In this document: positions 7,565-64,000 of the stretch, one piece after another
How the letters are laid out: each line of letters begins with the position of its first letter
How positions within the stretch are numbered: position 1 is the first letter of the stretch
From: Lota lota
Lineage: Eukaryota > Chordata > Actinopteri > Gadiformes > Lotidae
DNA: 64,000 nt
NCBI GenBank assembly: GCA_026745465.1
Contig: JACYXH010000189.1
Span: forward strand, 110,001-174,000
Direction: 5' to 3'
Translations under genes and position numbers: made by a program
Notes under the pieces: generated by a model
What the model saw: the letters and a program-made list of their open reading frames with translations, nothing else
The model's database searches: none
What the model was told of the DNA's origin: nothing

Positions 7565-22134
<14,570 letters not shown>

Positions 22135-33893: not shown

Positions 33894-33991
<98 letters not shown>

Positions 33992-36240: not shown

Positions 36241-36311
36241 GAGCCAGCGAGCTAAGGATTTCAGGCTCTTTTCACTACAGTCCTCCTGTGTACCAACTGA
36301 GCTGTTGAAGG
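36241..36311 (-). pseudogene. truncated tRNA-Tyr copy at array edge
   Basis: Matches a class B copy from the T-stem region to the 5' end but lacks the T loop and 3' acceptor strand, and has CCTGTGTACC and GTTGAAGG changes in the D arm and acceptor. The broken side faces the GA repeat. Confidence 0.85.
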
Positions 36312-36435
36312 GTCGGTAAGAGGGGTTATTGGTAGGAATGTCTACCAATAATATTGGCAAACCCAGCATTATCCCATATAGGCAATTTCTTAACCAAATT
36401 ATAGCTGTCAAAGTCTTACAGCACTTTCAAAAAAT

Positions 36436-36521
36436 TCCTGCAAGCCAGAGATGAACCACCATCCTACGGATTTAAGACTTTTTAAAATAGTCCTCAGCTC
36501 CACCAACTGAGTTATTGTAGC
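36436..36521 (-). pseudogene. decayed tRNA-Tyr copy P0 (P86)
   Basis: P86 copies: 5' acceptor strand reads GCTACAA and cannot pair with the TCGAAGG-type 3' strand, the GTA anticodon is lost, and TTTT lies in the former anticodon loop. This copy also has 3' changes (CCTGCAAGCCAG). Confidence 0.85.
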
Positions 36522-36648
36522 TTGAGTTAGCATGGTTATTGCGAGGAATAGCCACAAAACCTCTCGGCCACATCCCACATTAATGCAACATCGACATTCC
36601 TTTCACCAAATGACAATCCCTCAAAGTTGTTCTCTACTTCCTAAAAAT

Positions 36649-36736
36649 TCCTTCGAGCAGGAGTTGAACCAGCGACCTAAGGATATCAGACTCTTTTTAC
36701 TACAGTCCTCCGCTCTACCAACTGAGCTATCGAAGG
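36649..36736 (-). tRNA. tRNA-Tyr(GTA) T1
   Basis: Consensus and class A intron, but G63>T gives a T51-T63 mismatch in the T stem. Confidence 0.8.
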
Positions 36737-36860
36737 GTCTGTATGAGCCTTTATTGGTAGGAATATCTACAAATAATATTGGCAAATCCAGCATTATGCC
36801 ATATTGGCAATTTCTTAACCAAAGGATAGCTATCAAAGTTGCACTGCACTTCCTAAAAAT

Positions 36861-36948
36861 TCCTTCAAGCCGGAGTTGAACCAGCGACCTAAGGATTTCA
36901 GGCTCTTTTCACTACAGTCCTCCGCTCTACCAACTGAGCTATCGAAGG
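36861..36948 (-). tRNA. tRNA-Tyr(GTA) T2
   Basis: Class B; G6-T67 is a wobble pair, so the acceptor stem still closes. Confidence 0.88.
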
Positions 36949-37072
36949 GTCGGTATGAGAGGTTATTGGTACGAAGGTCTACCAATAATATTAGCAAACT
37001 CAGCATTATGCCATATTGGCAATTTCCTAACCAAATTATAGCTGTCAAAGTCGTACAGCACTTCCAAAAAAT

Positions 37073-37160
37073 TCCTTTGAGCCGGAGATGAACCACCAAC
37101 CTACGGATTTAAGACTCTTTTTAAAGTAGTCCTCCGATCCACCAACTGAGTTATTGTAGC
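37073..37160 (-). pseudogene. decayed tRNA-Tyr copy P1 (P88)
   Basis: P88 copies keep full length and read GGACTACTTTAAAAAGAG where the anticodon loop was; the acceptor 5' strand is GCTACAA, and D-arm GGTGGATC replaces GGTAGAGC. Confidence 0.88.
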
Positions 37161-37287
37161 TTGAGTTAGCATGGTTACTACGAGGAATAGCCACAAAACC
37201 TCTCGGCCACATCCCACATTAATGCAACATTGACATTCCTTTCACCAAATGACAATCCCTCAAAGTTGTTCTCTATTTCCTAAAAAT

Positions 37288-37375
37288 TCCTTCGAGCCGG
37301 AGTTGAACCAGCGACCTAAGGATATCAGACTCTTTTTACTACAGTCCTCCGCTCTACCAACTGAGCTATCGAAGG
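37288..37375 (-). tRNA. tRNA-Tyr(GTA) T3
   Basis: Class A. Confidence 0.95.
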
Positions 37376-37499
37376 GTCTGTATGAGCTGTTATTGGTAGG
37401 AATATCTACAAATAATATTGGCAAATCCAGCATTATGCCATATTGGCAATTTCTTAACCAAAGGATAGCTATCAAAGTTGCACTGCACTTCCTAAAAAT

Positions 37500-37587
37500 T
37501 CCTTCAAGCCGGAGTTGAACCAGCGACCTAAGGATTTCAGGCTCTTTTCACTACAGTCCTCCGCTCTACCAACTGAGCTATCGAAGG
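37500..37587 (-). tRNA. tRNA-Tyr(GTA) T4
   Basis: Class B. Confidence 0.88.
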
Positions 37588-37711
37588 GTCGGTACGAGAG
37601 GTTATTGGTACGAAGGTCTACCAATAATATTAGCAAACTCAGCATTATGCCATATTGGCAATTTCCTAACCAAATTATAGCTGTCAAAGTCTTACAGCAC
37701 TTCCAAAAAAT

Positions 37712-37799
37712 TCCTTCGAGCCGGAGATGAACCACCAACCTACGGATTTAAGACTCTTTTTAAAGTAGTCCTCCGATCCACCAACTGAGTTATTGTAGC
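37712..37799 (-). pseudogene. decayed tRNA-Tyr copy P2 (P88)
   Basis: P88; closes the second ~639-bp trimer. Confidence 0.88.
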
Positions 37800-37927
37800 T
37801 TGAGTTAGCATGGTTACTGCGAGGAATAGCCACAAAACTTCTCGGCCACATCCCACATTAATGCAACATCGACATTCCTTTCACCAAATGACAATCCCTC
37901 AAAGTTGTTCTCTATTTCCCAAAAAAT

Positions 37928-38015
37928 TCCTTCGAGCCGGAGTTGAACCAGCGACCTAAGGATATCAGACTCTTTTCACTACAGTCCTCCGCTCTACCAA
38001 CAGAGCTATCGAAGG
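37928..38015 (-). tRNA. tRNA-Tyr(GTA) T5
   Basis: Class E intron with A14>T, which removes the conserved A14 of the A box and of the 8-14 tertiary pair. Confidence 0.7.
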
Positions 38016-38139
38016 GTCTGTATGAGCTGTTATTGGTAGGAATATCTACAAATAATATTGGCAAATCCAGCATTATGCCATATTCGCAATTTCTTAGCCA
38101 AAGGATAGCTATCAAATTTGCAATGAACTTCCAAAAAAT

Positions 38140-38227
38140 TCCTTCGAGCCGGAGTTGAACCAGCGACCTAAGGATATCAGACTCTTTTTACTACAGTCCT
38201 CCGCTCTACCAACTGAGCTATCGAAGG
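38140..38227 (-). tRNA. tRNA-Tyr(GTA) T6
   Basis: Class A. Confidence 0.95.
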
Positions 38228-38351
38228 GTCGGTAAGAGAGGTTATTGGTAGGAATGTCTACCAATATTATTGGCAAACCCAGCATTATGCCATATTGGCA
38301 ATTTCTTAACCAAATTATAGCTGTCAAAGTCGTACAGCACTTCTAAAAAAT

Positions 38352-38438
38352 TCCTTCGAGCCGGAGATGAACCACCAACCTACTGATTTAAGACTTTTTT
38401 AAAGTAGTCCTCCGATCCACCAACTGAGTTATTGTAGC
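38352..38438 (-). pseudogene. decayed tRNA-Tyr copy P3 (87 nt)
   Basis: Intermediate between P86 and P88 (TACTGATTTAAGAC joined to AAAGTAGTCCTCCGATCC), so probably a recombinant. Confidence 0.85.
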
Positions 38439-38565
38439 TTCAGTTAGCATTGTTACTGCGAGGAATAGCCACAAATCCTCTCGGCCACATCCCATATTAA
38501 TGCAACATCGACATTCCTTTCACCAAATGACAATCCCTTAAAGTTGTTCTGTATTTCCTAAAAAC

Positions 38566-38653
38566 TCCTTCGAGCAGGAGTTGAACCAGCGACCTAAGGA
38601 TATCAGACTCTTTTCACTACAGTCCTCCGCTCTACCAACTGAGCTATCGAAGT
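38566..38653 (-). tRNA. tRNA-Tyr(GTA) T7, probably impaired
   Basis: Class E intron, G63>T in the T stem and C1>A, which breaks the C1-G72 identity pair. Confidence 0.6.
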
Positions 38654-38777
38654 GTCTGTATGAGCTGTTATTGGTAGGAATACTTACAAATAATATTGGC
38701 AAACCCAGCATTATGGCATATTGGCAATTTCTTAGCCAAAGGATAGCTATCAAATTTGCAATGCACTTCCAAAAAAC

Positions 38778-38865
38778 TCCTTCGAGCCGGAGTTGAACCA
38801 GCGACCTAAGGATATCAGACTCTTTTTACTACAGTCCTCCGCTCTACCAACTGAGCTATCGAATG
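38778..38865 (-). tRNA. tRNA-Tyr(GTA) T8
   Basis: Class A with C2>A, giving an A2-G71 mismatch. Confidence 0.7.
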
Positions 38866-38989
38866 GTCGGTAAGAGAGGTTATTGGTAGGAATGTCTAAC
38901 AATATTATTGGCAAACCCAGCATTATGCCATATCGGAAATGTCTTAACCAAATTATAGCTGTCAAAGTCGTACAGCACTTCCAAAAAAT

Positions 38990-39075
38990 TCCTTCGAGCC
39001 GGAGATGAACCACCAACCTACTGATTTAAGACTTTTTAAAATAGTCCTCCGCTCCACCAACTGAGTTATTGTAGC
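38990..39075 (-). pseudogene. decayed tRNA-Tyr copy P4 (P86)
   Basis: P86. Confidence 0.88.
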
Positions 39076-39204
39076 TTCAGTTAGCATGGTAACTGAGAGG
39101 AATAGGCACAAAACATCTCGGCCACATCCCACAAAATAATGCAACATCGACATTCCTTTCACCAAATGACAATCCCTCAAAGTTGTTCTGTTTTTCCTAA
39201 AAAC

Positions 39205-39292
39205 TCCTTCGAGCCGGAGTTGAACCAGCGACCTAAGGATATCAGACTCTTTTTACTACAGTCCTCCGCTCTACCAACTGAGCTATCGAAGG
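39205..39292 (-). tRNA. tRNA-Tyr(GTA) T9
   Basis: Class A. Left end of the block repeated 2,974 bp further on. Confidence 0.95.
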
Positions 39293-39416
39293 GTCGGTAA
39301 GAGAGGTTATTGGTAGGAATGTCTACCAATATTATTGGCAAACCCAGCATTATGCCATATTGGCAATTTCTTAACCAAATTATAACTGTCAAAGTCGTAC
39401 AGCACTTCCAAAAAAT

Positions 39417-39502
39417 TCCTTCGAGCCGGAGATGAACCACCAACCTATTGATTTAAGACTTTTTAAAATAGTCCTCCGCTCCACCAACTGAGTTATTGTA
39501 GC
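39417..39502 (-). pseudogene. decayed tRNA-Tyr copy P5 (P86)
   Basis: P86 with CTATTGATTTAAG variant. Confidence 0.88.
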
Positions 39503-39627
39503 TTCAGTTAGCATGGTAACTGAGAGGAATAGCCACAAAACCTCTCGGCCACATCTTACAGTATTGCAATGTCGACATTCCTTTCATCAAAGGACTCCCT
39601 CAAAGTCGTTGTCTACTTCCTAAACAT

Positions 39628-39715
39628 TCCTTCAAGCCGGAGTTGAACCAGCGACCTAAGGATATCAGACTCTTTTTATTACAGTCCTCCGCTCTACCAA
39701 CTGAGCTATCGAATG
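39628..39715 (-). tRNA. tRNA-Tyr(GTA) T10, class F
   Basis: Class F plus C67>T. Only TTT follows the 3' end. Confidence 0.65.
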
Positions 39716-39839
39716 GTCGGTAAGAGAGGTTATTGGTAGGAATGTCTAACAATATTATTGGCAAACCCAGCATTATGCCATATTGGAAATTTCTTAACCA
39801 AATTATAGCTGTCAAAGTCGTACAGCACTTCCAAAAAAT

Positions 39840-39925
39840 TCCTTCGAGCCGGAGATTAACCACCAACCTACTGATTTAAGACTTTTTAAAATAGTCCTCC
39901 GCTCCACCAACTGAGTTATTGTAGC
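39840..39925 (-). pseudogene. decayed tRNA-Tyr copy P6 (P86x)
   Basis: P86x: C56>A additionally damages the B box. Confidence 0.88.
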
Positions 39926-40052
39926 TTCAGTTAGCATGGTAACTGAGAGGAATAGCCACAAAACCTCTCGGCCGCATCCCACATTAATGCAACATCGACA
40001 TTCCTTTCACCAAATGTCAATCCCTCAAAGTTGTTCTGTATTTCCTAAAAAT

Positions 40053-40140
40053 TCCTTCGATCCGGAGTTGAACCAGCGACTTAAGGATATCAGACTCTTT
40101 TTACTACAGTCCTCCGCTCTACCAACTGAGCTATCGAAGG
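40053..40140 (-). tRNA. tRNA-Tyr(GTA) T11
   Basis: Class C; G49-A65 mismatch at the base of the T stem. Confidence 0.75.
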
Positions 40141-40264
40141 GTATATATGAGATGTTATTGGTAAGAATATCTACAAATAATATTGGCAAACCCTGCATTA
40201 CGCCATATTGGCAATTTCTTAACCAAAGGATAGCTATCAAAGTTGCACTGCACTTCCTAAAAAT

Positions 40265-40352
40265 TCCTTCGAGCCGGAGTTGAACCAGCGACCTAAGGAT
40301 ATCAGACTCTTTTTACTACAGTCCTCCGCTCTACCAACTGAGCTATCGAAGG
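40265..40352 (-). tRNA. tRNA-Tyr(GTA) T12
   Basis: Class A. Confidence 0.95.
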
Positions 40353-40475
40353 GTCTGTATGAGCTGTTATTGGTAGGAAAACCTACAAATAATATTGGCA
40401 AACCCAGCATTATGCCATATTGGCAATTTCTTAGCCAAAGGATAGCTATCAAATTTGCCATGCACTTCCAAAAAT

Positions 40476-40563
40476 TCCTTCAAGCCAGAGTTGAACCAGC
40501 GACCTAAGGATATCAGACTCTTTTTACTACAGTCCTCCGCTCTACCAACTGAGCTATCGAAGG
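40476..40563 (-). tRNA. tRNA-Tyr(GTA) T13
   Basis: Class D plus C67>T; both changes leave wobble pairs. Confidence 0.82.
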
Positions 40564-40687
40564 GTCTGTACGAGCTGTTATTGGTAGGAATACTTACAAA
40601 TAATATTGGCAAACCCAGCATTATGCCATATTCGCAATTTCTTAGCCAAAGGATAGCTATCAAAGTTGCACTGCACTTCCTAAAAAT

Positions 40688-40775
40688 TCCTTCAAGCCGG
40701 AGTTGAACCAGCGACCTAAGGATTTCAGGCTCTTTTCACTACAGTCCTCCGCTCTACCAACTGAGCTATCGAAGG
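40688..40775 (-). tRNA. tRNA-Tyr(GTA) T14
   Basis: Class B. Confidence 0.88.
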
Positions 40776-40899
40776 GTCGGTACGAGAGGTTATTGGTACG
40801 AAGGTCTACCAATAATATTAGCAAACTCAGCATTATGCCATATTGGCAATTTCCTAACCAAATTATAGCTGTCAAAGTCTTACAGCACTTCCAAAAAAT

Positions 40900-40987
40900 T
40901 CCTTCGAGCCGGAGATGAACCACCAACCTACGGATTTAAGACTCTTTTTAAAGTAGTCCTCCGATCCACCAACTGAGTTATTGTAGC
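40900..40987 (-). pseudogene. decayed tRNA-Tyr copy P7 (P88)
   Basis: P88. Confidence 0.88.
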
Positions 40988-41114
40988 TTGAGTTAGCATG
41001 GTTACTGCGAGGAATAGCCACAAAACTTCTCGGCCACATCCCACATTAATGCAACATCGACATTCCTTTCACCAAATGACAATCCCTCAAAGTTGTTCTC
41101 TATTTCCTAAAAAT

Positions 41115-41202
41115 TCCTTCGAGCCGGAGTTGAACCAGCGACCTAAGGATATCAGACTCTTTTTACTACAGTCCTCCGCTCTACCAACTGAGCTATCGAA
41201 GG
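41115..41202 (-). tRNA. tRNA-Tyr(GTA) T15
   Basis: Class A. Confidence 0.95.
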
Positions 41203-41326
41203 GTCTGTATGAGCTGTTATTGGTAGGAATATCTACAAATAATATTGGCAAATCCAGCATTATGCCATATTCGCAATTTCTTAGCCAAAGGATAGCTATC
41301 AAATTTGCAATGAACTTCCAAAAAAT

Positions 41327-41414
41327 TCCTTCGAGCCGGAGTTGAACCAGCGACCTAAGGATATCAGACTCTTTTTACTACAGTCCTCCGCTCTACCAAC
41401 TGAGCTATCGAAGG
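41327..41414 (-). tRNA. tRNA-Tyr(GTA) T16
   Basis: Class A; 5' flank reads GTCTTTAAGAG rather than GTCGGTAAGAG. Confidence 0.95.
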
Positions 41415-41538
41415 GTCTTTAAGAGAGGTTATTGGTAGGAATGTCTACCAATATTATTGGCAAACCCAGCATTATGCCATATTGGCAATTTCTTAACCAA
41501 ATTATAGCTGTCAAAGTCGTACAGCACTTCTAAAAAAT

Positions 41539-41624
41539 TCCTTCGAGCCGGAGATGAACCACCAACATACTGATTTAAGACTTTTTAAAATAGTCCTCCG
41601 CTCCACCAACTGAGTTATTGTAGC
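41539..41624 (-). pseudogene. decayed tRNA-Tyr copy P8 (P86)
   Basis: P86 with CCAACATACTG variant. Confidence 0.88.
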
Positions 41625-41751
41625 TTCAGTTAGCATTGTTACTGCGAGGAATAGCCACAAATCCTCTCGGCCACATCCCATATTAATGCAACATCGACAT
41701 TCCTTTCACCAAATGACAATCCCTTAAAGTTGTTCTGTATTTCCTAAAAAC

Positions 41752-41839
41752 TCCTTCGAGCCGGAGTTGAACCAGCGACCTAAGGATATCAGACTCTTTT
41801 CACTACAGTCCTCCGCTCTACCAACTGAGCTATCGAAGG
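41752..41839 (-). tRNA. tRNA-Tyr(GTA) T17
   Basis: Class E. Confidence 0.93.
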
Positions 41840-41963
41840 GTCTGTATGAGCTGTTATTGGTAGGAATACTTACAAATAATATTGGCAAACCCAGCATTAT
41901 GGCATATTGGCAATTTCTTAGCCAAAGGATAGCTATCAAATTTGCAATGCACTTCCAAAAAAT

Positions 41964-42049
41964 TCCTTCGAGCCGGAGATGAACCACCAACCTACTGATT
42001 TAAGACTTTTTAAAATAGTCCTCCGCTCCACCAACTGAGTTATTGTAGC
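41964..42049 (-). pseudogene. decayed tRNA-Tyr copy P9 (P86)
   Basis: P86. Confidence 0.88.
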
Positions 42050-42178
42050 TTCAGTTAGCATGGTAACTGAGAGGAATAGGCACAAAACCTCTCGGCCACA
42101 TCCCACAAAATAATGCAACATCGACATTCCTTTCACCAAATGACAATCCCTCAAAGTTGTTCTGTTTTTCCTAAAAAC

Positions 42179-42266
42179 TCCTTCGAGCCGGAGTTGAACC
42201 AGCGACCTAAGGATATCAGACTCTTTTTACTACAGTCCTCCGCTCTACCAACTGAGCTATCGAAGG
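42179..42266 (-). tRNA. tRNA-Tyr(GTA) T18
   Basis: Class A. Confidence 0.95.
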
Positions 42267-42390
42267 GTCGGTAAGAGAGGTTATAGGTAGGAATGTCTAC
42301 CAATATTATTGGCAAACCCAGCATTATGCCATATTGGCAATTTCTTAACCAAATTATAACTGTCAAAGTCGTACAGCACTTCCAAAAAAT

Positions 42391-42476
42391 TCCTTCGAGC
42401 CGGAGATGAACCACCAACCTATTGATTTAAGACTTTTTAAAATAGTCCTCCGCTCCACCAACTGAGTTATTGTAGC
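42391..42476 (-). pseudogene. decayed tRNA-Tyr copy P10 (P86)
   Basis: P86, CTATTGATTTAAG variant as in P5. Confidence 0.88.
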
Positions 42477-42601
42477 TTCAGTTAGCATGGTAACTGAGAG
42501 GAATAGCCACAAAACCTCTCGGCCACATCTTACAGTATTGCAATGTCGACATTCCTTTCATCAAATGACTCCCTCAAAGTCGTTGTCTACTTCCTAAACA
42601 T

Positions 42602-42689
42602 TCCTTCGAGCCGGAGTTGAACCAGCGACCTAAGGATATCAGACTCTTTTTATTACAGTCCTCCGCTCTACCAACTGAGCTATCGAATG
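42602..42689 (-). tRNA. tRNA-Tyr(GTA) T19, class F
   Basis: Class F. Confidence 0.68.
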
Positions 42690-42813
42690 GTCGGTAAGAG
42701 AGGTTATTGGTAGGAATGTCTAACAATATTATTGGCAAACCCAGCATTATGCCATATTGGAAATTTCTTAACCAAATTATAGCTGTCAAAGTCGTACAGC
42801 ACTTCCAAAAAAT

Positions 42814-42899
42814 TCCTTCGAGCCGGAGATTAACCACCAACCTACTGATTTAAGACTTTTTAAAATAGTCCTCCGCTCCACCAACTGAGTTATTGTAGC
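42814..42899 (-). pseudogene. decayed tRNA-Tyr copy P11 (P86x)
   Basis: P86x. Confidence 0.88.
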
Positions 42900-43026
42900 T
42901 TCAGTTAGCATGGTAACTGAGAGGAATAGCCACAAAACCTCTCGGCCGCATCCCACATTAATGCAACATCGACATTCCTTTCACCAAATGTCAATCCCTC
43001 AAAGTTGTTCTGTATTTCCTAAAAAT

Positions 43027-43114
43027 TCCTTCGATCCGGAGTTGAACCAGCGACTTAAGGATATCAGACTCTTTTTACTACAGTCCTCCGCTCTACCAAC
43101 TGAGCTATCGAAGG
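43027..43114 (-). tRNA. tRNA-Tyr(GTA) T20
   Basis: Class C. Confidence 0.75.
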
Positions 43115-43238
43115 GTATGTATGAGATGTTATTGGTAAGAATATCTACAAATAATATTGGCAAACCCTGCATTACGCCATATTGGCAATTTCTTAACCAA
43201 AGGATAGCTATCAAAGTTGCACTGCACTTCCTAAAAAT

Positions 43239-43326
43239 TCCTTCGAGCCGGAGTTGAACCAGCGACCTAAGGATATCAGACTCTTTTTACTACAGTCCTC
43301 CGCTCTACCAACTGAGCTATCGAAGG
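43239..43326 (-). tRNA. tRNA-Tyr(GTA) T21
   Basis: Class A. Confidence 0.95.
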
Positions 43327-43449
43327 GTCTGTATGAGCTGTTATTGGTAGGAAAACCTACAAATAATATTGGCAAACCCAGCATTATGCCATATTGGCAA
43401 TTTCTTAGCCAAAGGATAGCTATCAAATTTGCAATGCACTTCCAAAAAT

Positions 43450-43537
43450 TCCTTCGAGCCAGAGTTGAACCAGCGACCTAAGGATATCAGACTCTTTTTA
43501 CTACAGTCCTCTGCTCTACCAACTGAGCTATCGAAGG
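43450..43537 (-). tRNA. tRNA-Tyr(GTA) T22
   Basis: Class D plus G26>A. Confidence 0.82.
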
Positions 43538-43661
43538 GTCTGTATGAGCTGTTATTGGTAGGAATACTTACAAATAATATTGGCAAACCCAGCATTATGC
43601 CATATTCGCAATTTCTTAGCCAAAGGATAGCTATCAAAGTTGCACTGCACTTCCTAAAAAT

Positions 43662-43749
43662 TCCTTCAAGCCGGAGTTGAACCAGCGACCTAAGGATTTC
43701 AGGCTCTTTTCACTACAGTCCTCCGCTCTACCAACTGAGCTATCGAAGG
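43662..43749 (-). tRNA. tRNA-Tyr(GTA) T23
   Basis: Class B. Confidence 0.88.
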
Positions 43750-43873
43750 GTCGGTACGAGAGGTTATTGGTACGAAGGTCTACCAATAATATTAGCAAAC
43801 TCAGCATTATGCCATATTGGCAATTTCCTAACCAAATTATAGCTGTCAAAGTCTTACAGCACTTCCAAAAAAT

Positions 43874-43961
43874 TCCTTCGAGCCGGAGATGAACCACCAA
43901 CCTACGGATTTAAGACTCTTTTTAAAGTAGTCCTCCGATCCACCAACTGAGTTATTGTAGC
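43874..43961 (-). pseudogene. decayed tRNA-Tyr copy P12 (P88)
   Basis: P88. Confidence 0.88.
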
Positions 43962-44088
43962 TTGAGTTAGCATGGTTACTGCGAGGAATAGCCACAAAAC
44001 TTCTCGGCCACATCCCACATTAATGCAACATCGACATTCCTTTCACCAAATGACAATCCCTCAAAGTTGTTCTCTATTTCCTAAAAAT

Positions 44089-44176
44089 TCCTTCGAGCCG
44101 GAGTTGAACCAGCGACCTAAGGATATCAGACTCTTTTTACTACAGTCCTCCGCTCTACCAACTGAGCTATCGAAGG
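44089..44176 (-). tRNA. tRNA-Tyr(GTA) T24
   Basis: Class A. Confidence 0.95.
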
Positions 44177-44300
44177 GTCTGTATGAGCTGTTATTGGTAG
44201 GAATATCTACAAATAATATTGGCAAATCCAGCATTATGCCATATTCGCAATTTCTTAGCCAAAGGATAGCTATCAAATTTGCAATGAACTTCCAAAAAAT

Positions 44301-44388
44301 TCCTTCGAGCCGGAGTTGAACCAGCGACCTAAGGATATCAGACTCTTTTTACTACAGTCCTCCGCTCTACCAACTGAGCTATCGAAGG
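44301..44388 (-). tRNA. tRNA-Tyr(GTA) T25
   Basis: Class A. Confidence 0.95.
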
Positions 44389-44512
44389 GTCGGTAAGAGA
44401 GGTTATTGGTAGGAATGTCTACCAATATTATTGGCAAACCCAGCATTATGCCATATTGGCAATTTCTTAACCAAATTATAGCTGTCAAAGTCGTACAGCA
44501 CTTCTAAAAAAT

Positions 44513-55776: not shown

Positions 55777-55864
55777 TCCTTCGAGCCGGAGTTGAACCAG
55801 CGACCTAAGGATATCAGACTCTTTTCACTACAGTCCTCCGCTCTACCAACTGAGCTATCGAAGG
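55777..55864 (-). tRNA. tRNA-Tyr(GTA) T59
   Basis: Class E. Confidence 0.93.
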
Positions 55865-55988
55865 GTCTGTATGAGCTGTTATTGGTAGGAATACTTACAA
55901 ATAATATTGGCAAACCCAGCATTATGGCATATTGGCAATTTCTTAGCCAAAGGATAGCTATCAAATTTGCAATGCACTTCCAAAAAAT

Positions 55989-56074
55989 TCCTTCGAGCCG
56001 GAGATGAACCACCAACCTACTGATTTAAGACTTTTTAAAATAGTCCTCCGCTCCACCAACTGAGTTATTGTAGC
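55989..56074 (-). pseudogene. decayed tRNA-Tyr copy P33 (P86)
   Basis: P86. Confidence 0.88.
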
Positions 56075-56203
56075 TTCAGTTAGCATGGTAACTGAGAGGA
56101 ATAGGCACAAAACCTCTCGGCCACATCCCACAAAATAATGCAACATCGACATTCCTTTCACCAAATGACAATCCCTCAAAGTTGTTCTGTTTTTCCTAAA
56201 AAC

Positions 56204-56291
56204 TCCTTCGAGCCGGAGTTGAACCAGCGACCTAAGGATATCAGACTCTTTTTACTACAGTCCTCCGCTCTACCAACTGAGCTATCGAAGG
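56204..56291 (-). tRNA. tRNA-Tyr(GTA) T60
   Basis: Class A. Confidence 0.95.
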
Positions 56292-56414
56292 GTCGGTAAG
56301 AGAGGTTATTGGTAGGAATGTCTACCAATATTATTGGCAAACCCAGCATTATGCCATATTGGCAATTTCTTAACCAAATTATAACTGTCAAAGTCGTACA
56401 GCACTTCCAAAAAT

Positions 56415-56500
56415 TCCTTCGAGCCGGAGATGAACCACCAACCTATTGATTTAAGACTTTTTAAAATAGTCCTCCGCTCCACCAACTGAGTTATTGTAGC
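56415..56500 (-). pseudogene. decayed tRNA-Tyr copy P34 (P86)
   Basis: P86; one A fewer in the 3' A/T run than P23, shared with P45. Confidence 0.88.
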
Positions 56501-56625
56501 TTCAGTTAGCATGGTAACTGAGAGGAATAGCCACAAAACCTCTCGGCCACATCTTACAGTATTGCAATGTCGACATTCCTTTCATCAAATGACTCCCTCA
56601 AAGTCGTTGTCTACTTCCTAAACAT

Positions 56626-56713
56626 TCCTTCGAGCCGGAGTTGAACCAGCGACCTAAGGATATCAGACTCTTTTTATTACAGTCCTCCGCTCTACCAACT
56701 GAGCTATCGAATG
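56626..56713 (-). tRNA. tRNA-Tyr(GTA) T61, class F
   Basis: Class F. Confidence 0.68.
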
Positions 56714-56837
56714 GTCGGTAAGAGAGGTTATTGGTAGGAATGTCTAACAATATTATTGGCAAACCCAGCATTATGCCATATTGGAAATTTCTTAACCAAA
56801 TTATAGCTGTCAAAGTCGTACAGCACTTCCAAAAAAT

Positions 56838-56923
56838 TCCTTCGAGCCGGAGATTAACCACCAACCTACTGATTTAAGACTTTTTAAAATAGTCCTCCGC
56901 TCCACCAACTGAGTTATTGTAGC
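56838..56923 (-). pseudogene. decayed tRNA-Tyr copy P35 (P86x)
   Basis: P86x. Confidence 0.88.
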
Positions 56924-57050
56924 TTCAGTTAGCATGGTAACTGAGAGGAATAGCCACAAAACCTCTCGGCCGCATCCCACATTAATGCAACATCGACATT
57001 CCTTTCACCAAATGTCAATCCCTCAAAGTTGTTCTGTATTTCCTAAAAAT

Positions 57051-57138
57051 TCCTTCGATCCGGAGTTGAACCAGCGACTTAAGGATATCAGACTCTTTTT
57101 ACTACAGTCCTCCGCTCTACCAACTGAGCTATCGAAGG
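57051..57138 (-). tRNA. tRNA-Tyr(GTA) T62
   Basis: Class C; spacer variant as T42. Confidence 0.75.
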
Positions 57139-57262
57139 GTATGTATGAGATGTTATTGGTAAGAATATCTACAAATAATATTGGCAAACCCTGCATTTCG
57201 CCATATTGGCAATTTCTTAACCAAAGGATAGCTATCAAAGTTGCACTGCACTTCCTAAAAAT

Positions 57263-57350
57263 TCCTTCGAGCCGGAGTTGAACCAGCGACCTAAGGATAT
57301 CAGACTCTTTTTACTACAGTCCTCCGCTCTACCAACTGAGCTATCGAAGG
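57263..57350 (-). tRNA. tRNA-Tyr(GTA) T63
   Basis: Class A. Confidence 0.95.
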
Positions 57351-57473
57351 GTCTGTATGAGCTGTTATTGGTAGGAAAACCTACAAATAATATTGGCAAA
57401 CCCAGCATTATGCCATATTGGCAATTTCTTAGCCAAAGGATAGCTATCAAATTTGCAATGCACTTCCAAAAAT

Positions 57474-57561
57474 TCCTTCGAGCCAGAGTTGAACCAGCGA
57501 CCTAAGGATATCAGACTCTTTTTACTACAGTCCTCCGCTCTACCAACTGAGCTATCGAAGG
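57474..57561 (-). tRNA. tRNA-Tyr(GTA) T64
   Basis: Class D. Confidence 0.85.
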
Positions 57562-57685
57562 GTCTGTATGAGCTGTTATTGGTAGGAATACTTACAAATA
57601 ATATTGGCAAACCCAGCATTATGCCATATTCGCAATTTCTTAGCCAAAGGATAGCTATCAAAGTTGCACTGCACTTCCTAAAAAT

Positions 57686-57773
57686 TCCTTCAAGCCGGAG
57701 TTGAACCAGCGACCTAAGGATTTCAGGCTCTTTTCACTACAGTCCTCCGCTCTACCAACTGAGCTATCGAAGG
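57686..57773 (-). tRNA. tRNA-Tyr(GTA) T65
   Basis: Class B. Confidence 0.88.
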
Positions 57774-57897
57774 GTCGGTACGAGAGGTTATTGGTACGAA
57801 GGTCTACCAATAATATTAGCAAACTCAGCATTATGCCATATTGGCAATTTCCTAACCAAATTATAGCTGTCAAAGTCTTACAGCACTTCCAAAAAAT

Positions 57898-57985
57898 TCC
57901 TTCGAGCCGGAGATGAACCACCAACCTACGGATTTAAGACTCTTTTTAAAGTAGTCCTCCGATCCACCAACTGAGTTATTGTAGC
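57898..57985 (-). pseudogene. decayed tRNA-Tyr copy P36 (P88)
   Basis: P88. Confidence 0.88.
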
Positions 57986-58112
57986 TTGAGTTAGCATGGT
58001 TACTGCGAGGAATAGCCACAAAACTTCTCGGCCACATCCCACATTAATGCAACATCGACATTCCTTTCACCAAATGACAATCCCTCAAAGTTGTTCTCTA
58101 TTTCCTAAAAAT

Positions 58113-58200
58113 TCCTTCGAGCCGGAGTTGAACCAGCGACCTAAGGATATCAGACTCTTTTTACTACAGTCCTCCGCTCTACCAACTGAGCTATCGAAGG
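58113..58200 (-). tRNA. tRNA-Tyr(GTA) T66
   Basis: Class A. Confidence 0.95.
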
Positions 58201-58324
58201 GTCTGTATGAGCTGTTATTGGTAGGAATATCTACAAATAATATTGGCAAATCCAGCATTATGCCATATTCGCAATTTCTTAGCCAAAGGATAGCTATCAA
58301 ATTTGCAATGAACTTCCAAAAAAT

Positions 58325-58412
58325 TCCTTCGAGCCGGAGTTGAACCAGCGACCTAAGGATATCAGACTCTTTTTACTACAGTCCTCCGCTCTACCAACTG
58401 AGCTATCGAAGG
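58325..58412 (-). tRNA. tRNA-Tyr(GTA) T67
   Basis: Class A. Confidence 0.95.
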
Positions 58413-58536
58413 GTCGGTAAGAGAGGTTATTGGTAGGAATGTCTACCAATATTATTGGCAAACCCAGCATTATGCCATATTGGCAATTTCTTAACCAAAT
58501 TATAGCTGTCAAAGTCGTACAGCACTTCTAAAAAAT

Positions 58537-58622
58537 TCCTTCGAGCCGGAGATGAACCACCAACCTACTGATTTAAGACTTTTTAAAATAGTCCTCCGCT
58601 CCACCAACTGAGTTATTGTAGC
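58537..58622 (-). pseudogene. decayed tRNA-Tyr copy P37 (P86)
   Basis: P86. Confidence 0.88.
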
Positions 58623-58749
58623 TTCAGTTAGCATTGTTACTGCGAGGAATAGCCACAAATCCTCTCGGCCACATCCCATATTAATGCAACATCGACATTC
58701 CTTTCACCAAATGACAATCCCTTAAAGTTGTTCTGTATTTCCTAAAAAC

Positions 58750-58837
58750 TCCTTCGAGCCGGAGTTGAACCAGCGACCTAAGGATATCAGACTCTTTTCA
58801 CTACAGTCCTCCGCTCTACCAACTGAGCTATCTAATG
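58750..58837 (-). tRNA. tRNA-Tyr(GTA) T68, probably impaired
   Basis: Class E with C2>A and C5>A, as T48. Confidence 0.58.
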
Positions 58838-58961
58838 GTCGGTAAGAGAGGTTATTGGTAGGAATGTCTAACAATATTATTGGCAAACCCAGCATTATGC
58901 CATATTGGAAATTTCTTAACCAAATTATAGCTGTCAAAGTCGTACAGCACTTCCAAAAAAT

Positions 58962-59047
58962 TCCTTCGAGCCGGAGATTAACCACCAACCTACTGATTTA
59001 AGACTTTTTAAAATAGTCCTCCGCTCCACCAACTGAGTTATTGTAGC
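58962..59047 (-). pseudogene. decayed tRNA-Tyr copy P38 (P86x)
   Basis: P86x. Confidence 0.88.
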
Positions 59048-59174
59048 TTCAGTTAGCATGGTAACTGAGAGGAATAGCCACAAAACCTCTCGGCCGCATC
59101 CCACATTAATGCAACATCGACATTCCTTTCACCAAATGTCAATCCCTCAAAGTTGTTCTGTATTTCCTAAAAAT

Positions 59175-59262
59175 TCCTTCGATCCGGAGTTGAACCAGCG
59201 ACTTAAGGATATCAGACTCTTTTTACTACAGTCCTCCGCTCTACCAACTGAGCTATCGAAGG
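59175..59262 (-). tRNA. tRNA-Tyr(GTA) T69
   Basis: Class C. Confidence 0.75.
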
Positions 59263-59386
59263 GTATGTATGAGATGTTATTGGTAAGAATATCTACAAAT
59301 AATATTGGCAAACCCTGCATTACGCCATATTGGCAATTTCTTAACCAAAGGATAGCTATCAAAGTTGCACTGCACTTCCTAAAAAT

Positions 59387-59474
59387 TCCTTCGAGCCGGA
59401 GTTGAACCAGCGACCTAAGGATATCAGACTCTTTTTACTACAGTCCTCCGCTCTACCAACTGAGCTATCGAGGG
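59387..59474 (-). tRNA. tRNA-Tyr(GTA) T70
   Basis: Class A with T3>C, as T50. Confidence 0.75.
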
Positions 59475-59598
59475 GTCTGTATGAGCTGTTATTGGTAGGA
59501 AAACCTACAAATAATATTGGCAAACCCAGCATTATGCCATATTGGCAATTTCTTAGCCAAAGGATAGCTATCAAAGTTGCACTGCACTTCCTAAAAAT

Positions 59599-59686
59599 TC
59601 CTTCAAGCCGGAGTTGAACCAGCGACCTAAGGATTTCAGGCTCTTTTCACTACAGTCCTCCGCTCTACCAACTGAGCTATCGAAGG
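59599..59686 (-). tRNA. tRNA-Tyr(GTA) T71
   Basis: Class B. Confidence 0.88.
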
Positions 59687-59810
59687 GTCGGTACGAGAGG
59701 TTATTGGTACGAAGGTCTACCAATAATATTAGCAAACTCAGCATTATGCCATATTGGCAATTTCCTAACCAAATTATAGCTGTCAAAGTCTTACAGCACT
59801 TCCAAAAAAT

Positions 59811-59898
59811 TCCTTCGAGCCGGAGATGAACCACCAACCTACGGATTTAAGACTCTTTTTAAAGTAGTCCTCCGATCCACCAACTGAGTTATTGTAGC
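59811..59898 (-). pseudogene. decayed tRNA-Tyr copy P39 (P88)
   Basis: P88. Confidence 0.88.
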
Positions 59899-60025
59899 TT
59901 GAGTTAGCATGGTTACTGCGAGGAATAGCCACAAAACTTCTCGGCCACATCCCACATTAATGCAACATCGACATTCCTTTCACCAAATGACAATCCCTCA
60001 AAGTTGTTCTCTATTTCCTAAAAAT

Positions 60026-60113
60026 TCCTTCGAGCCGGAGTTGAACCAGCGACCTAAGGATATCAGACTCTTTTTACTACAGTCCTCCGCTCTACCAACT
60101 GAGCTATCGAAGG
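60026..60113 (-). tRNA. tRNA-Tyr(GTA) T72
   Basis: Class A. Confidence 0.95.
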
Positions 60114-60237
60114 GTCTGTATGAGCTGTTATTGGTAGGAATATCTACAAATAATATTGGCAAATCCAGCATTATGCCATATTCGCAATTTCTTAGCCAAA
60201 GGATAGCTATCAAATTTGCAATGAACTTCCAAAAAAT

Positions 60238-60325
60238 TCCTTCGAGCCGGAGTTGAACCAGCGACCTAAGGATATCAGACTCTTTTTACTACAGTCCTCC
60301 GCTCTACCAACTGAGCTATCGAAGG
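60238..60325 (-). tRNA. tRNA-Tyr(GTA) T73
   Basis: Class A. Confidence 0.95.
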
Positions 60326-60449
60326 GTCGGTAAGAGAGGTTATTGGTAGGAATGTCTACCAATATTATTGGCAAACCCAGCATTATGCCATATTGGCAAT
60401 TTCTTAACCAAATTATAGCTGTCAAAGTCGTACAGCACTTCTAAAAAAT

Positions 60450-60535
60450 TCCTTCGAGCCGGAGATGAACCACCAACCTACTGATTTAAGACTTTTTAAA
60501 ATAGTCCTCCGCTCCACCAACTGAGTTATTGTAGC
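60450..60535 (-). pseudogene. decayed tRNA-Tyr copy P40 (P86)
   Basis: P86. Confidence 0.88.
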
Positions 60536-60662
60536 TTCAGTTAGCATTGTTACTGCGAGGAATAGCCACAAATCCTCTCGGCCACATCCCATATTAATGC
60601 AACATCGACATTCCTTTCACCAAATGACAATCCCTTAAAGTTGTTCTGTATTTCCTAAAAAC

Positions 60663-60750
60663 TCCTTCGAGCCGGAGTTGAACCAGCGACCTAAGGATAT
60701 CAGACTCTTTTCACTACAGTCCTCCGCTCTACCAACTGAGCTATCGAATG
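60663..60750 (-). tRNA. tRNA-Tyr(GTA) T74
   Basis: Class E with C2>A. Confidence 0.72.
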
Positions 60751-60874
60751 GTCGGTAAGAGAGGTTATTGGTAGGAATGTCTAACAATATTATTGGCAAA
60801 CCCAGCATTATGCCATATTGGAAATTTCTTAACCAAATTATAGCTGTCAAAGTCGTACAGCACTTCCAAAAAAT

Positions 60875-60960
60875 TCCTTCGAGCCGGAGATTAACCACCA
60901 ACCTACTGATTTAAGACTTTTTAAAATAGTCCTCCGCTCCACCAACTGAGTTATTGTAGC
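60875..60960 (-). pseudogene. decayed tRNA-Tyr copy P41 (P86x)
   Basis: P86x. Confidence 0.88.
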
Positions 60961-61087
60961 TTCAGTTAGCATGGTAACTGAGAGGAATAGCCACAAAACC
61001 TCTCGGCCGCATCCCACATTAATGCAACATCGACATTCCTTTCACCAAATGTCAATCCCTCAAAGTTGTTCTGTATTTCCTAAAAAT

Positions 61088-61175
61088 TCCTTCGATCCGG
61101 AGTTGAACCAGCGACTTAAGGATATCAGACTCTTTTTACTACAGTCCTCCGCTCTACCAACTGAGCTATCGAAGG
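61088..61175 (-). tRNA. tRNA-Tyr(GTA) T75
   Basis: Class C. Confidence 0.75.
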
Positions 61176-61299
61176 GTATGTATGAGATGTTATTGGTAAG
61201 AATATCTACAAATAATATTGGCAAACCCTGCATTACGCCATATTGGCAATTTCTTAACCAAAGGATAGCTATCAAAGTTGCACTGCACTTCCTAAAAAT

Positions 61300-61387
61300 T
61301 CCTTCGAGCCGGAGTTGAACCAGCGACCTAAGGATATCAGACTCTTTTTACTACAGTCCTCCGCTCTACCAACTGAGCTATCGAAGG
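61300..61387 (-). tRNA. tRNA-Tyr(GTA) T76
   Basis: Class A. Confidence 0.95.
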
Positions 61388-61510
61388 GTCTGTATGAGCT
61401 GTTATTGGTAGGAAAACCTACAAATAATATTGGCAAACCCAGCATTATGCCATATTGGCAATTTCTTAGCCAAAGGATAGCTATCAAATTTGCAATGCAC
61501 TTCCAAAAAT

Positions 61511-61598
61511 TCCTTCGAACCAGAGTTGAACCAGCGACCTAAGGATATCAGACTCTTTTTACTACAGTCCTCCGCTCTACCAACTGAGCTATCGAAGG
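61511..61598 (-). tRNA. tRNA-Tyr(GTA) T77
   Basis: Class D recombinant form plus a private C65>T (G49-T65 wobble). Confidence 0.8.
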
Positions 61599-61722
61599 GT
61601 CGGTACGAGAGGTTATTGGTACGAAGGTCTACCAATAATATTAGCAAACTCAGCATTATGCCATATTGGCAATTTCCTAACCAAATTATAGCTGTCAAAG
61701 TCTTACAGCACTTCCAAAAAAT

Positions 61723-61810
61723 TCCTTCGAGCCGGAGATGAACCACCAACCTACGGATTTAAGACTCTTTTTAAAGTAGTCCTCCGATCCACCAACTGAG
61801 TTATTGTAGC
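61723..61810 (-). pseudogene. decayed tRNA-Tyr copy P42 (P88)
   Basis: P88. Confidence 0.88.
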
Positions 61811-61937
61811 TTGAGTTAGCATGGTTACTGCGAGGAATAGCCACAAAACTTCTCGGCCACATCCCACATTAATGCAACATCGACATTCCTTTCACCAAAT
61901 GACAATCCCTCAAAGTTGTTCTCTATTTCCTAAAAAT

Positions 61938-62025
61938 TCCTTCGAGCCGGAGTTGAACCAGCGACCTAAGGATATCAGACTCTTTTTACTACAGTCCTCC
62001 GCTCTACCAACTGAGCTATCGAAGG
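61938..62025 (-). tRNA. tRNA-Tyr(GTA) T78
   Basis: Class A. Confidence 0.95.
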
Positions 62026-62149
62026 GTCGGTAAGAGAGGTTATTGGTAGGAATGTCTACCAATATTATTGGCAAACCCAGCATTATGCCATATTGGCAAT
62101 TTCTTAACCAAATTATAGCTGTCAAAGTCGTACAGCACTTCTAAAAAAT

Positions 62150-62235
62150 TCCTTCGAGCCGGAGATGAACCACCAACCTACTGATTTAAGACTTTTTAAA
62201 ATAGTCCTCCGCTCCACCAACTGAGTTATTGTAGC
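62150..62235 (-). pseudogene. decayed tRNA-Tyr copy P43 (P86)
   Basis: P86. Confidence 0.88.
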
Positions 62236-62362
62236 TTCAGTTAGCATTGTTACTGCGAGGAATAGCCACAAATCCTCTCGGCCACATCCCATATTAATGC
62301 AACATCGACATTCCTTTCACCAAATGACAATCCCTTAAAGTTGTTCTGTATTTCCTAAAAAC

Positions 62363-62450
62363 TCCTTCGAGCCGGAGTTGAACCAGCGACCTAAGGATAT
62401 CAGACTCTTTTCACTACAGTCCTCCGCTCTACCAACTGAGCTATCGAAGG
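62363..62450 (-). tRNA. tRNA-Tyr(GTA) T79
   Basis: Class E. Confidence 0.93.
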
Positions 62451-62574
62451 GTCTGTATGAGCTGTTATTGGTAGGAATACTTACAAATAATATTGGCAAA
62501 CCCAGCATTATGGCATATTGGCAATTTCTTAGCCAAAGGATAGCTATCAAATTTGCAATGCACTTCCAAAAAAT

Positions 62575-62660
62575 TCCTTCGAGCCGGAGATGAACCACCA
62601 ACCTACTGATTTAAGACTTTTTAAAATAGTCCTCCGCTCCACCAACTGAGTTATTGTAGC
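62575..62660 (-). pseudogene. decayed tRNA-Tyr copy P44 (P86)
   Basis: P86. Confidence 0.88.
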
Positions 62661-62789
62661 TTCAGTTAGCATGGTAACTGAGAGGAATAGGCACAAAACC
62701 TCTCGGCCACATCCCACAAAATAATGCAACATCGACATTCCTTTCACCAAATGACAATCCCTCAAAGTTGTTCTGTTTTTCCTAAAAAC

Positions 62790-62876
62790 TCCTTCGAGCC
62801 GGAGTTGAACCAGCGACCTAAGGATATCAGACTCTTTTACTACAGTCCTCCGCTCTACCAACTGAGCTATCGAAGG
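62790..62876 (-). tRNA. tRNA-Tyr(GTA) T80, 14-nt intron
   Basis: Mature sequence as class A, but the intron has lost one A (four instead of five in its A run), the only intron-length change in the array. Confidence 0.9.
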
Positions 62877-62999
62877 GTCGGTAAGAGAGGTTATTGGTAG
62901 GAATGTCTACCAATATTATTGGCAAACCCAGCATTATGCCATATTGGCAATTTCTTAACCAAATTATAACTGTCAAAGTCGTACAGCACTTCCAAAAAT

Positions 63000-63085
63000 T
63001 CCTTCGAGCCGGAGATGAACCACCAACCTATTGATTTAAGACTTTTTAAAATAGTCCTCCGCTCCACCAACTGAGTTATTGTAGC
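63000..63085 (-). pseudogene. decayed tRNA-Tyr copy P45 (P86)
   Basis: P86; same one-base deletion as P34. Confidence 0.88.
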
Positions 63086-63210
63086 TTCAGTTAGCATGGT
63101 AACTGAGAGGAATAGCCACAAAACCTCTCGGCCACATCTTACAGTATTGCAATGTCGACATTCCTTTCATCAAATGACTCCCTCAAAGTCGTTGTCTACT
63201 TCCTAAACAT

Positions 63211-63298
63211 TCCTTCGAGCCGGAGTTGAACCAGCGACCTAAGGATATCAGACTCTTTTTATTACAGTCCTCCGCTCTACCAACTGAGCTATCGAATG
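63211..63298 (-). tRNA. tRNA-Tyr(GTA) T81, class F
   Basis: Class F. Confidence 0.68.
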
Positions 63299-63422
63299 GT
63301 CGGTAAGAGAGGTTATTGGTAGGAATGTCTAACAATATTATTGGCAAACCCAGCATTATGCCATATTGGAAATTTCTTAACCAAATTATAGCTGTCAAAG
63401 TCGTACAGCACTTCCAAAAAAT

Positions 63423-63508
63423 TCCTTCGAGCCGGAGATTAACCACCAACCTACTGATTTAAGACTTTTTAAAATAGTCCTCCGCTCCACCAACTGAGTT
63501 ATTGTAGC
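63423..63508 (-). pseudogene. decayed tRNA-Tyr copy P46 (P86x)
   Basis: P86x. Confidence 0.88.
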
Positions 63509-63635
63509 TTCAGTTAGCATGGTAACTGAGAGGAATAGCCACAAAACCTCTCGGCCGCATCCCACATTAATGCAACATCGACATTCCTTTCACCAAATGT
63601 CAATCCCTCAAAGTTGTTCTGTATTTCCTAAAAAT

Positions 63636-63723
63636 TCCTTCGATCCGGAGTTGAACCAGCGACTTAAGGATATCAGACTCTTTTTACTACAGTCCTCCGC
63701 TCTACCAACTGAGCTATCGAAGG
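63636..63723 (-). tRNA. tRNA-Tyr(GTA) T82
   Basis: Class C. Confidence 0.75.
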
Positions 63724-63847
63724 GTATGTATGAGATGTTATTGGTAAGAATATCTACAAATAATATTGGCAAACCCTGCATTACGCCATATTGGCAATTT
63801 CTTAACCAAAGGATAGCTATCAAAGTTGCACTGCACTTCCTAAAAAT

Positions 63848-63935
63848 TCCTTCGAGCCGGAGTTGAACCAGCGACCTAAGGATATCAGACTCTTTTTACT
63901 ACAGTCCTCCGCTCTACCAACTGAGCTATCGAAGG
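63848..63935 (-). tRNA. tRNA-Tyr(GTA) T83
   Basis: Class A; the last copy before the window ends inside its 5' spacer. Confidence 0.95.
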
Positions 63936-64000
63936 GTCTGTATGAGCTGTTATTGGTAGGAAAACCTACAAATAATATTGGCAAACCCAGCATTATGCCA

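Follow-up and report, generated by a model that had tools for sequence, protein, structure and literature searches.

Long runs of near-identical tRNA genes raise the question of whether they supply tRNA to the egg or are largely silent DNA. In print it is still debated, according to the available text of two papers, whether clustered tRNA genes in fish work as maternal genes or lie silent as repeats (PMC11075544, PMC11417395). A sequence-only reading of a stretch of the Lota lota genome had raised both possibilities for a large array of tRNA-Tyr genes, and at this locus they can be asked about directly, as one isotype lies in one block and a diagnostic base is present in every array gene. The window analysed is 64,000 nucleotides long (contig JACYXH010000189.1, positions 110,001 to 174,000, forward strand), and 40 kb more of the contig was examined.

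Extent of the tRNA-Tyr array

The array occupies window-equivalent positions 36,244-75,912 (39,669 bp, 39.7 kb; positions 146,244-185,912 of the contig), all on one contig, and adjoins a gene-bearing region in which PDK-type and ankyrin-repeat genes lie. It consists of 187 tandem units of ~212 bp, every one on the minus strand: 119 complete tRNA-Tyr(GTA) genes and one truncated gene (T units), and 67 units of a pseudogene type (P units). The right end, at 75,912 (position 185,912 of the contig), lies beyond the window edge, which the sequence-only reading had the array crossing. That reading's ~131 minus-strand units at ~212-bp spacing and 83 full-length GTA copies also agree with the census inside the window, where 131 units comprise 84 T, of which 83 are complete and the one at the left edge is truncated, together with 47 P.

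36244..64000, minus strand: in-window part of the array (131 of 187 units), from TRF, Rfam and unit count; it runs on along the contig to 75,912.
36244..36311, minus strand: truncated T unit at the array's left end; its exon 2 breaks off at a GA-rich simple repeat.

Within the window, TRF reports a single array (36,244-64,000) with a period of 212 (130.6 copies) or 425 (65.3 copies), and the Rfam tRNA model yields 83 matches above the gathering score (45.0-58.4 bits), all on the minus strand and all within the array. ARAGORN finds at least 83 tRNA genes in the array when introns are limited to 200 nt. At its default intron limit it finds at least 60, because neighbouring copies are joined, and without the intron option it returns 0 tRNA genes, because the array genes have introns.

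Near-identical blocks of 6.6 kb are hard to assemble, and an assembly artefact could have inflated or deflated the copy number. This is highly improbable given that the array lies wholly inside a contig of 1,163,817 bases, with no N in the array and non-array sequence bordering both its ends, that the order of unit types along the array is irregular and that copies bear differing private changes. That the array exists is beyond question, though its exact length may be less certain.

Gene units, relics and higher-order structure

By model and motif the T units are predicted to be nuclear tRNA-Tyr(GTA) genes. The GTA anticodon is present in 119/119 complete T genes, a downstream run of at least four T in 108/119, and the A box and B box in 117/119 each, scored with consensus motifs. 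An intron of 14-15 nt lies one base 3' of the anticodon, a position that marks the tRNA-Tyr family, in 120/120 T units (the truncated unit counted). Over all integrity criteria, 71/119 complete T genes pass and 48/119 fail at least one. The consensus mature sequence is carried by 38 of the 83 complete T genes in the window, exactly the number earlier counted by hand.

37288..37375, minus strand: example T gene with the consensus mature sequence (unit 125); exon 1 of 37 nt, intron of 15 nt, exon 2 of 36 nt, anticodon GTA, C59, Rfam 58.4 bits.
36949..37160, minus strand: example P unit (unit 126), a degenerate tRNA-Tyr relic plus spacer, lacking the A box, the B box and the GTA anticodon.
57139..63723, minus strand: units 1 to 31, ~6,585 bp, forming a single higher-order block of 31 monomers; it was set against the following block by unit lag.

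P is an old pseudogene type in which 0/67 units pass the integrity criteria and 0/67 have intact A and B boxes; it is a dead unit that has been co-amplified with the T genes (67 of 187 units). RNA folding is not counted as evidence: the minimum-energy form of the T consensus is not the cloverleaf, either mature or with its intron (z = -1.49 and -1.62, respectively), and shuffled versions of the P example fold at least as well as the example itself (z = 0.65).

The loss of both boxes in a third of the units (67/187) speaks against a role for TFIIIC sites of the array as a chromatin boundary or insulator. The human 1q23.3 tRNA repeat has been proposed to have such a role, and this precedent, together with dense Pol III type promoters beside a gene-bearing region, gives the idea some footing, but it is very unlikely here (PMC4041453). 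Both loci are vertebrate tandem repeats carrying tRNA genes; as described in the available text, the human one is a variable, CTCF-binding repeat with a 7.3-kb unit and 9-43 units per allele (PMC4041453), whereas the units here are 212 bp long and hold one gene or relic apiece.

Merging of sequence clusters gives three monomer classes, T1, T2 and P; two units, a stray T unit of class D and the truncated one, are excluded from the class comparisons and from the T consensus. T1 is followed by P in 66/66 cases, with T2 units between, and among lags of 1-49 monomers the mean identity is highest at 31 (0.902), giving a higher-order repeat of 31 monomers or ~6.6 kb. Both the T1-then-P pattern and the 31-monomer periodicity go beyond the earlier description. 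Changed copies are commoner at both ends of the array. Head-to-tail monomers arranged in higher-order blocks are a feature that the array shares with satellite DNA. Alpha satellite likewise has monomer classes, higher-order blocks and more divergent edges; unlike alpha satellite, the monomer here is a tRNA gene and its consensus appears constrained over the long term. A tRNA-derived SINE was considered and rejected, as a 23-base spacer word has 64 exact occurrences, 64/64 of them at this single locus, indicating no dispersal through the genome.

The C59 isodecoder

Position 59 of the T loop is C in 119/119 complete T genes and 67/67 P units. Across the array and the flanking sequence analysed, the exon 2 word with C59 has 72 exact copies. 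Seven other tRNA-Tyr genes were found in the genome (Rfam 54.9-60.5 bits), of which five have A59 and two T59, with C59 in 0/7. The array therefore encodes an isodecoder that a single nucleotide distinguishes and that, as predicted from the gene sequences, differs from the products of those seven genes, which is a new finding. Introns provide a second tag separating the array genes from the seven others. An amplified tandem class (119 genes, C59) thus coexists with a small dispersed class (seven genes, A59/T59) whose product sequences differ, a layout expected of a dual oocyte/somatic Pol III gene system. The B-box consensus allows any base at position 59, so C59 need not be functional.

Clusters of tandem tRNA genes occur commonly in this genome; 20 stretches sampled from them gave 153 tRNA calls and 0 Tyr genes, so the sampled mixed clusters do not supply Tyr. 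Searches for the Tyr exon 2 gave 0 matches in prokaryotic genomes and 0 in viral contigs. The lack of Tyr genes in the sampled clusters would suit an array that is active in all tissues and supplies much of the tRNA-Tyr, as would the internal promoters and terminators that are intact in most T units. Such constitutive dosage is nevertheless unlikely, since C59 sets the array apart as a separate class and, in the available text of a zebrafish study, tRNA levels in embryos cannot be predicted from the number of genes (PMC11574265).

Maternal supply or silent repeat

Constraint is indicated by a relative-rate test with the seven other tRNA-Tyr genes as outgroup, in which the T consensus has 0 private changes and P has 13 (p = 2.4e-4): P has decayed, whereas T has been kept unchanged. 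The P unit offers an internal reference for the way in which redundant arrays of genes maintain a consensus. Between the T1 and T2 consensuses there are 0/73 differences in the mature part, 43/124 in the spacer and 0/15 in the intron, and because the identity extends to the intron, gene-body exchange may contribute. From T2 to P the mature part has diverged more than the spacer (13/73 vs 15/124 differences; not significant, p = 0.29), so the spacers are no clean clock. Purging of recent mutations is not seen within the T classes, as variable sites seen only as singletons reach at least the same density in the mature part as in the spacer in T1, T2 and P; the claim of constraint therefore rests on the outgroup comparison.

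We give a probability of about 0.5 to the reading that these are amplified, genuine tRNA-Tyr(GTA) Pol III genes giving the C59 isodecoder, most likely a germline or maternal battery repressed in the soma. More tentative is its fuller form, a dedicated maternal battery with an egg-specific C59 isodecoder one T-loop base away from somatic tRNA-Tyr and with selection acting on the array as a gene population. With internal A and B boxes and a downstream T-run of its own, each T unit would be transcribed separately, which would make the array ~70-119 transcription units working in parallel. The array would be kept homogeneous and the consensus fixed by unequal exchange among monomers, which would also drag the dead P unit along and leave single copies free to decay. 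As for transcription, timing and role, we infer that oocytes would be loaded with tRNA-Tyr from the array, which would be repressed in the soma, where the dispersed genes would serve. According to the available text of the respective papers, the isodecoders that zebrafish eggs already contain are encoded in repetitive regions, and scattered genes encode those that appear late (PMC11417395); a dual oocyte/somatic organisation is described for the tRNA genes of Xenopus (PMC3565088).

Counting against a maternal battery are the scant recent purging, the 48 failing T genes, the zebrafish gene-number data and signs of methylation. CpG transitions are enriched (6/10 vs 11/63), which suggests germline methylation, and large tRNA clusters are near-completely methylated in early zebrafish embryos (PMC11574265, available text). 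The serious rival, possible though less likely, is a largely silent tRNA-derived satellite, spread by unequal exchange, methylated and repressed, while the dispersed genes do the work. It would account for the higher-order repeats, the end-enriched changed copies, the co-amplified dead unit, the CpG-transition enrichment and the scant recent purging; seven other Tyr genes are available, and clusters are mostly silenced or methylated in zebrafish (PMC11574265) and in Arabidopsis, where the Ser-Tyr-Tyr (SYY) cluster is silent in most tissues (PMC12308677), as far as the available parts of these papers go. It sits poorly with the unchanged T consensus and the 71 intact genes, and the CpG observed/expected ratio, at 0.69 in the array and 0.49 and 0.44 in the flanks, is a poor fit to long, complete methylation. 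Of the two readings first suggested, a burst of supply is backed by the genuine genes, the fixed consensus and the separate isodecoder, and the silent satellite by the repeat structure, the changed copies at both ends, the co-amplified dead unit, the failing T copies and the CpG mutations.

A dual maternal/somatic arrangement of the kind favoured here is reported for Xenopus tRNA genes and has been put forward for the clusters of zebrafish. Xenopus tRNA-Tyr genes lie in a multi-tRNA repeat. A pure vertebrate tRNA-Tyr array, which the sequence-only reading did not know to be described, is likewise absent among the matches listed in our literature searches, which covered few subscription journals, and the available part of a study of Asian seabass holds nothing on this array (PMC4833346). 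As here, tRNA-Tyr in Xenopus falls into two gene classes (PMC3565088, available text), but oocyte/somatic expression is stated for Xenopus tRNA genes, whereas the array here is known from sequence alone. The zebrafish genome, teleost-like as is this one, has clustered and scattered genes encoding different isodecoders per isotype, and in the available text its chromosome 4 region holds most tRNA genes of the genome together with 5S and snRNA genes (PMC11417395, PMC11574265, PMC11075544); unlike that region, the locus here has a single isotype, one 39.7-kb array of 212-bp units and a built-in pseudogene unit. The Arabidopsis SYY cluster, in the portion of the account available, is also a tandem array with intron-bearing tRNA-Tyr genes, with clustered and dispersed genes that differ in sequence and introns, and with a major-type core and a higher frequency of variants and pseudogenes at the flanks (PMC12308677). 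It belongs to a plant, however, its units mix Ser and Tyr and it has 54 clustered Tyr genes (PMC12308677), whereas the array here is Tyr only, with 119 complete genes and higher-order repeats.

Extent and organization of the array

The tRNA-Tyr array on contig C189 (1,163,817 bases, from an assembly of 575 Mb in 867 contigs; the window is C189:110,001-174,000) is a real, large, single-isotype array with its own tagged isodecoder. Genome size, microsatellite density and vertebrate-type exons suggest a teleost source. It spans 39,669 bp without N and is bordered at both ends by non-array sequence; the sequence-only reading had it continue past the right window edge, and it does so up to window-equivalent position 75,912 (the window numbering extended past 64,000). 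The genes beside it may correspond to the PDK4-ASB4 neighbourhood known from other vertebrates. The features are:

18,329-18,760 (18.5-18.7 kb), left of the array: exon sequence closest to pyruvate dehydrogenase kinase, PDK (Pfam BCDHK_Adom3, E = 2.4e-22; top PDB hits to PDK isozyme 1, E = 1.8e-29)
27,720-29,318 (27.7-29.3 kb), left of the array: ankyrin-repeat exons, from domain search
36,244 to window-equivalent 75,912, minus strand: tRNA-Tyr array

Perfect GT/CA runs of 94-151 bp also occur in the window, at 17,814-17,922, 20,230-20,357, 21,809-21,959 and 33,897-33,990.

The array consists of 187 head-to-tail units, all on the minus strand: 120 tRNA-Tyr(GTA) gene units (T; 119 complete, one truncated) and 67 degenerate relics (P). 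T units comprise a 37-nt exon 1, a 14-15-nt intron and a 36-nt exon 2, and 51 of the 119 complete copies carry the consensus mature sequence. Within the window, recounting returned the earlier figures of about 131 minus-strand units (131) and 38 consensus-identical copies (38/83). Using stem pairs and box motifs that we set ourselves after the general consensus, gene integrity was scored on five criteria: unbroken stem pairs (78/119), A box (117/119), B box (117/119), GTA anticodon (119/119) and four or more T in a run downstream (108/119). All five are passed by 71 of the 119, 48 of them with the consensus sequence, and by 55/83 in the window. P units have five to eight broken stem pairs each, an A box in 0/67 and a B box in 0/67, and ATT (50) or ACT (17) at the anticodon site; none is among the 83 Rfam tRNA matches in the window, and all 67 retain T-runs of at least 5.

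Clustering of 186 units, with clusters merged by us, gave the classes T1 (66), T2 (52), P (67) and one stray T. Each of the 66 T1 units has a P unit next to it in the series; after P comes T1 (35), T2 (31) or the truncated unit (1), and after T2 comes T1 (30), T2 (21) or the stray T (1). Among the 131 window units, identity peaks at a lag of 31 monomers (lags 1-49; mean 0.902, median 0.976). The mean number of mature changes per T copy is 1.07 and 1.67 for the two end bins versus 0.67-0.87 for the six inner ones, as unequal exchange predicts.

A separate isodecoder

Other tRNA-Tyr genes were sought genome-wide with an exact 30-base exon 1 word, which genes with an altered exon 1 would escape. 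The word occurs 112 times, 105 times in the array and seven times elsewhere:

C142 (two, 6 kb apart), C249, C300, C555, C681 and C685: other tRNA-Tyr genes

Each of these seven has its own intron and flanks, and their mature sequence equals the array consensus except at T-loop base 59 (our own numbering) and at one additional exon-2 change in the C300 gene. Base 59 is A in five and T in two (C249, C300); in the array it is C in 119/119 T and 67/67 P units, so the C59 change is older than the T/P split. All 64 genomic copies of a 23-base spacer word lie inside this array, so no second array was found with it.

The lone C300 gene (positions 172-257 of the retrieved stretch L040), with T59 and its additional change, scores lowest of the seven (54.9 bits) and has no T-run directly downstream; judged by its sequence, it may be weak or dead.

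Constraint on the gene body

Compared with the other tRNA-Tyr genes, used as outgroup, the T consensus has a single change, C59, which it shares with P, while the P consensus has 13 further changes (0 T-private versus 13 P-private, p = 2.4e-4). The T1 and T2 consensuses are identical at 73/73 mature and 15/15 intron sites and different at 43/124 spacer sites. Exchange within the gene body could also produce this agreement; the outgroup test is independent of it. T1 and P differ at 13/73 mature and 44/124 spacer sites (JC 0.20 and 0.48), a ratio near the 1:2 expected when one lineage alone is free to change. T2 and P differ at 13/73 and 15/124 (JC 0.20 and 0.13), a departure that points to spacer exchange.

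Present-day variation among array units shows little purging, and mature sequence has smaller mean pairwise differences than spacer in T1, T2 and also P. Our reading is that the consensus was kept over the long term, with single copies expendable.

Variation within unit classes (mature/spacer)
Class Variable sites Singleton-only sites Mean pairwise differences
T1 0.205/0.268 0.123/0.055 0.023/0.066
T2 0.219/0.266 0.151/0.129 0.018/0.057
P 0.205/0.331 0.096/0.089 0.029/0.065

Working battery or silent array

The array may be a working battery, most likely maternal, to which we give a probability of roughly one half; a mostly silent array is less likely but a serious alternative. Among the 119 T copies, 6 of 10 possible kinds of CpG transition are seen in mature sequence versus 11 of 63 at other sites (counted by hand; p = 0.008), an excess that suggests germline methylation at least part of the time. 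The CpG observed/expected ratio, however, is 0.69 in the array versus 0.49 and 0.44 for its two flanks, which argues against methylation that was both long and complete.

Large tRNA clusters are near-completely methylated in early zebrafish embryos, where the number of genes is no predictor of tRNA level (PMC11574265). Most Arabidopsis tissues keep the SYY cluster silent, but it becomes active again in root caps (PMC12308677). Zebrafish isodecoders present in the egg come from repetitive regions and late ones from scattered genes (PMC11417395), and a maternal role for zebrafish Chr4 tRNA genes has been put forward as a hypothesis (PMC11075544). For tRNA genes of Xenopus, dual oocyte/somatic systems are described with reference to Stutz et al. 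1989 (PMC3565088). The clustered share of tRNA genes and pseudogenes is 65% in zebrafish and 87% in stickleback (PMC2888827). The array is known in kind and new in form; the literature matches listed include no pure vertebrate tRNA-Tyr array.

Twenty 10-kb stretches around high-scoring tRNAs, chosen from the 63 candidates scored out of 35,586 initial ones, yielded 153 ARAGORN tRNA calls, none of them Tyr; the calls fall into tandem pairs (Ala-Lys or Thr-Lys) and clusters of mixed isotypes. The stretches are no census, because the candidate list lacked even this array. Tandem pairs of tRNA-Ala(AGC) and tRNA-Lys(TTT) in opposite orientation, several spaced about 1.86 kb, occupy L014-L018 (C637:886,001-936,000), and tRNA-Thr(AGT) alternates in tandem with tRNA-Lys(CTT/TTT) in the three stretches L022-L024 (C704:600,001-646,000). 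Dense multi-isotype clusters (Gly, Asp, Ser, Leu, Thr, Lys, Ala, Met and others) fill L020, L025, L026, L028-L030 and L033 (C125, C5, C856, C480, C209, C110); some lie on short contigs, and gene order is alike in L025 and L029.
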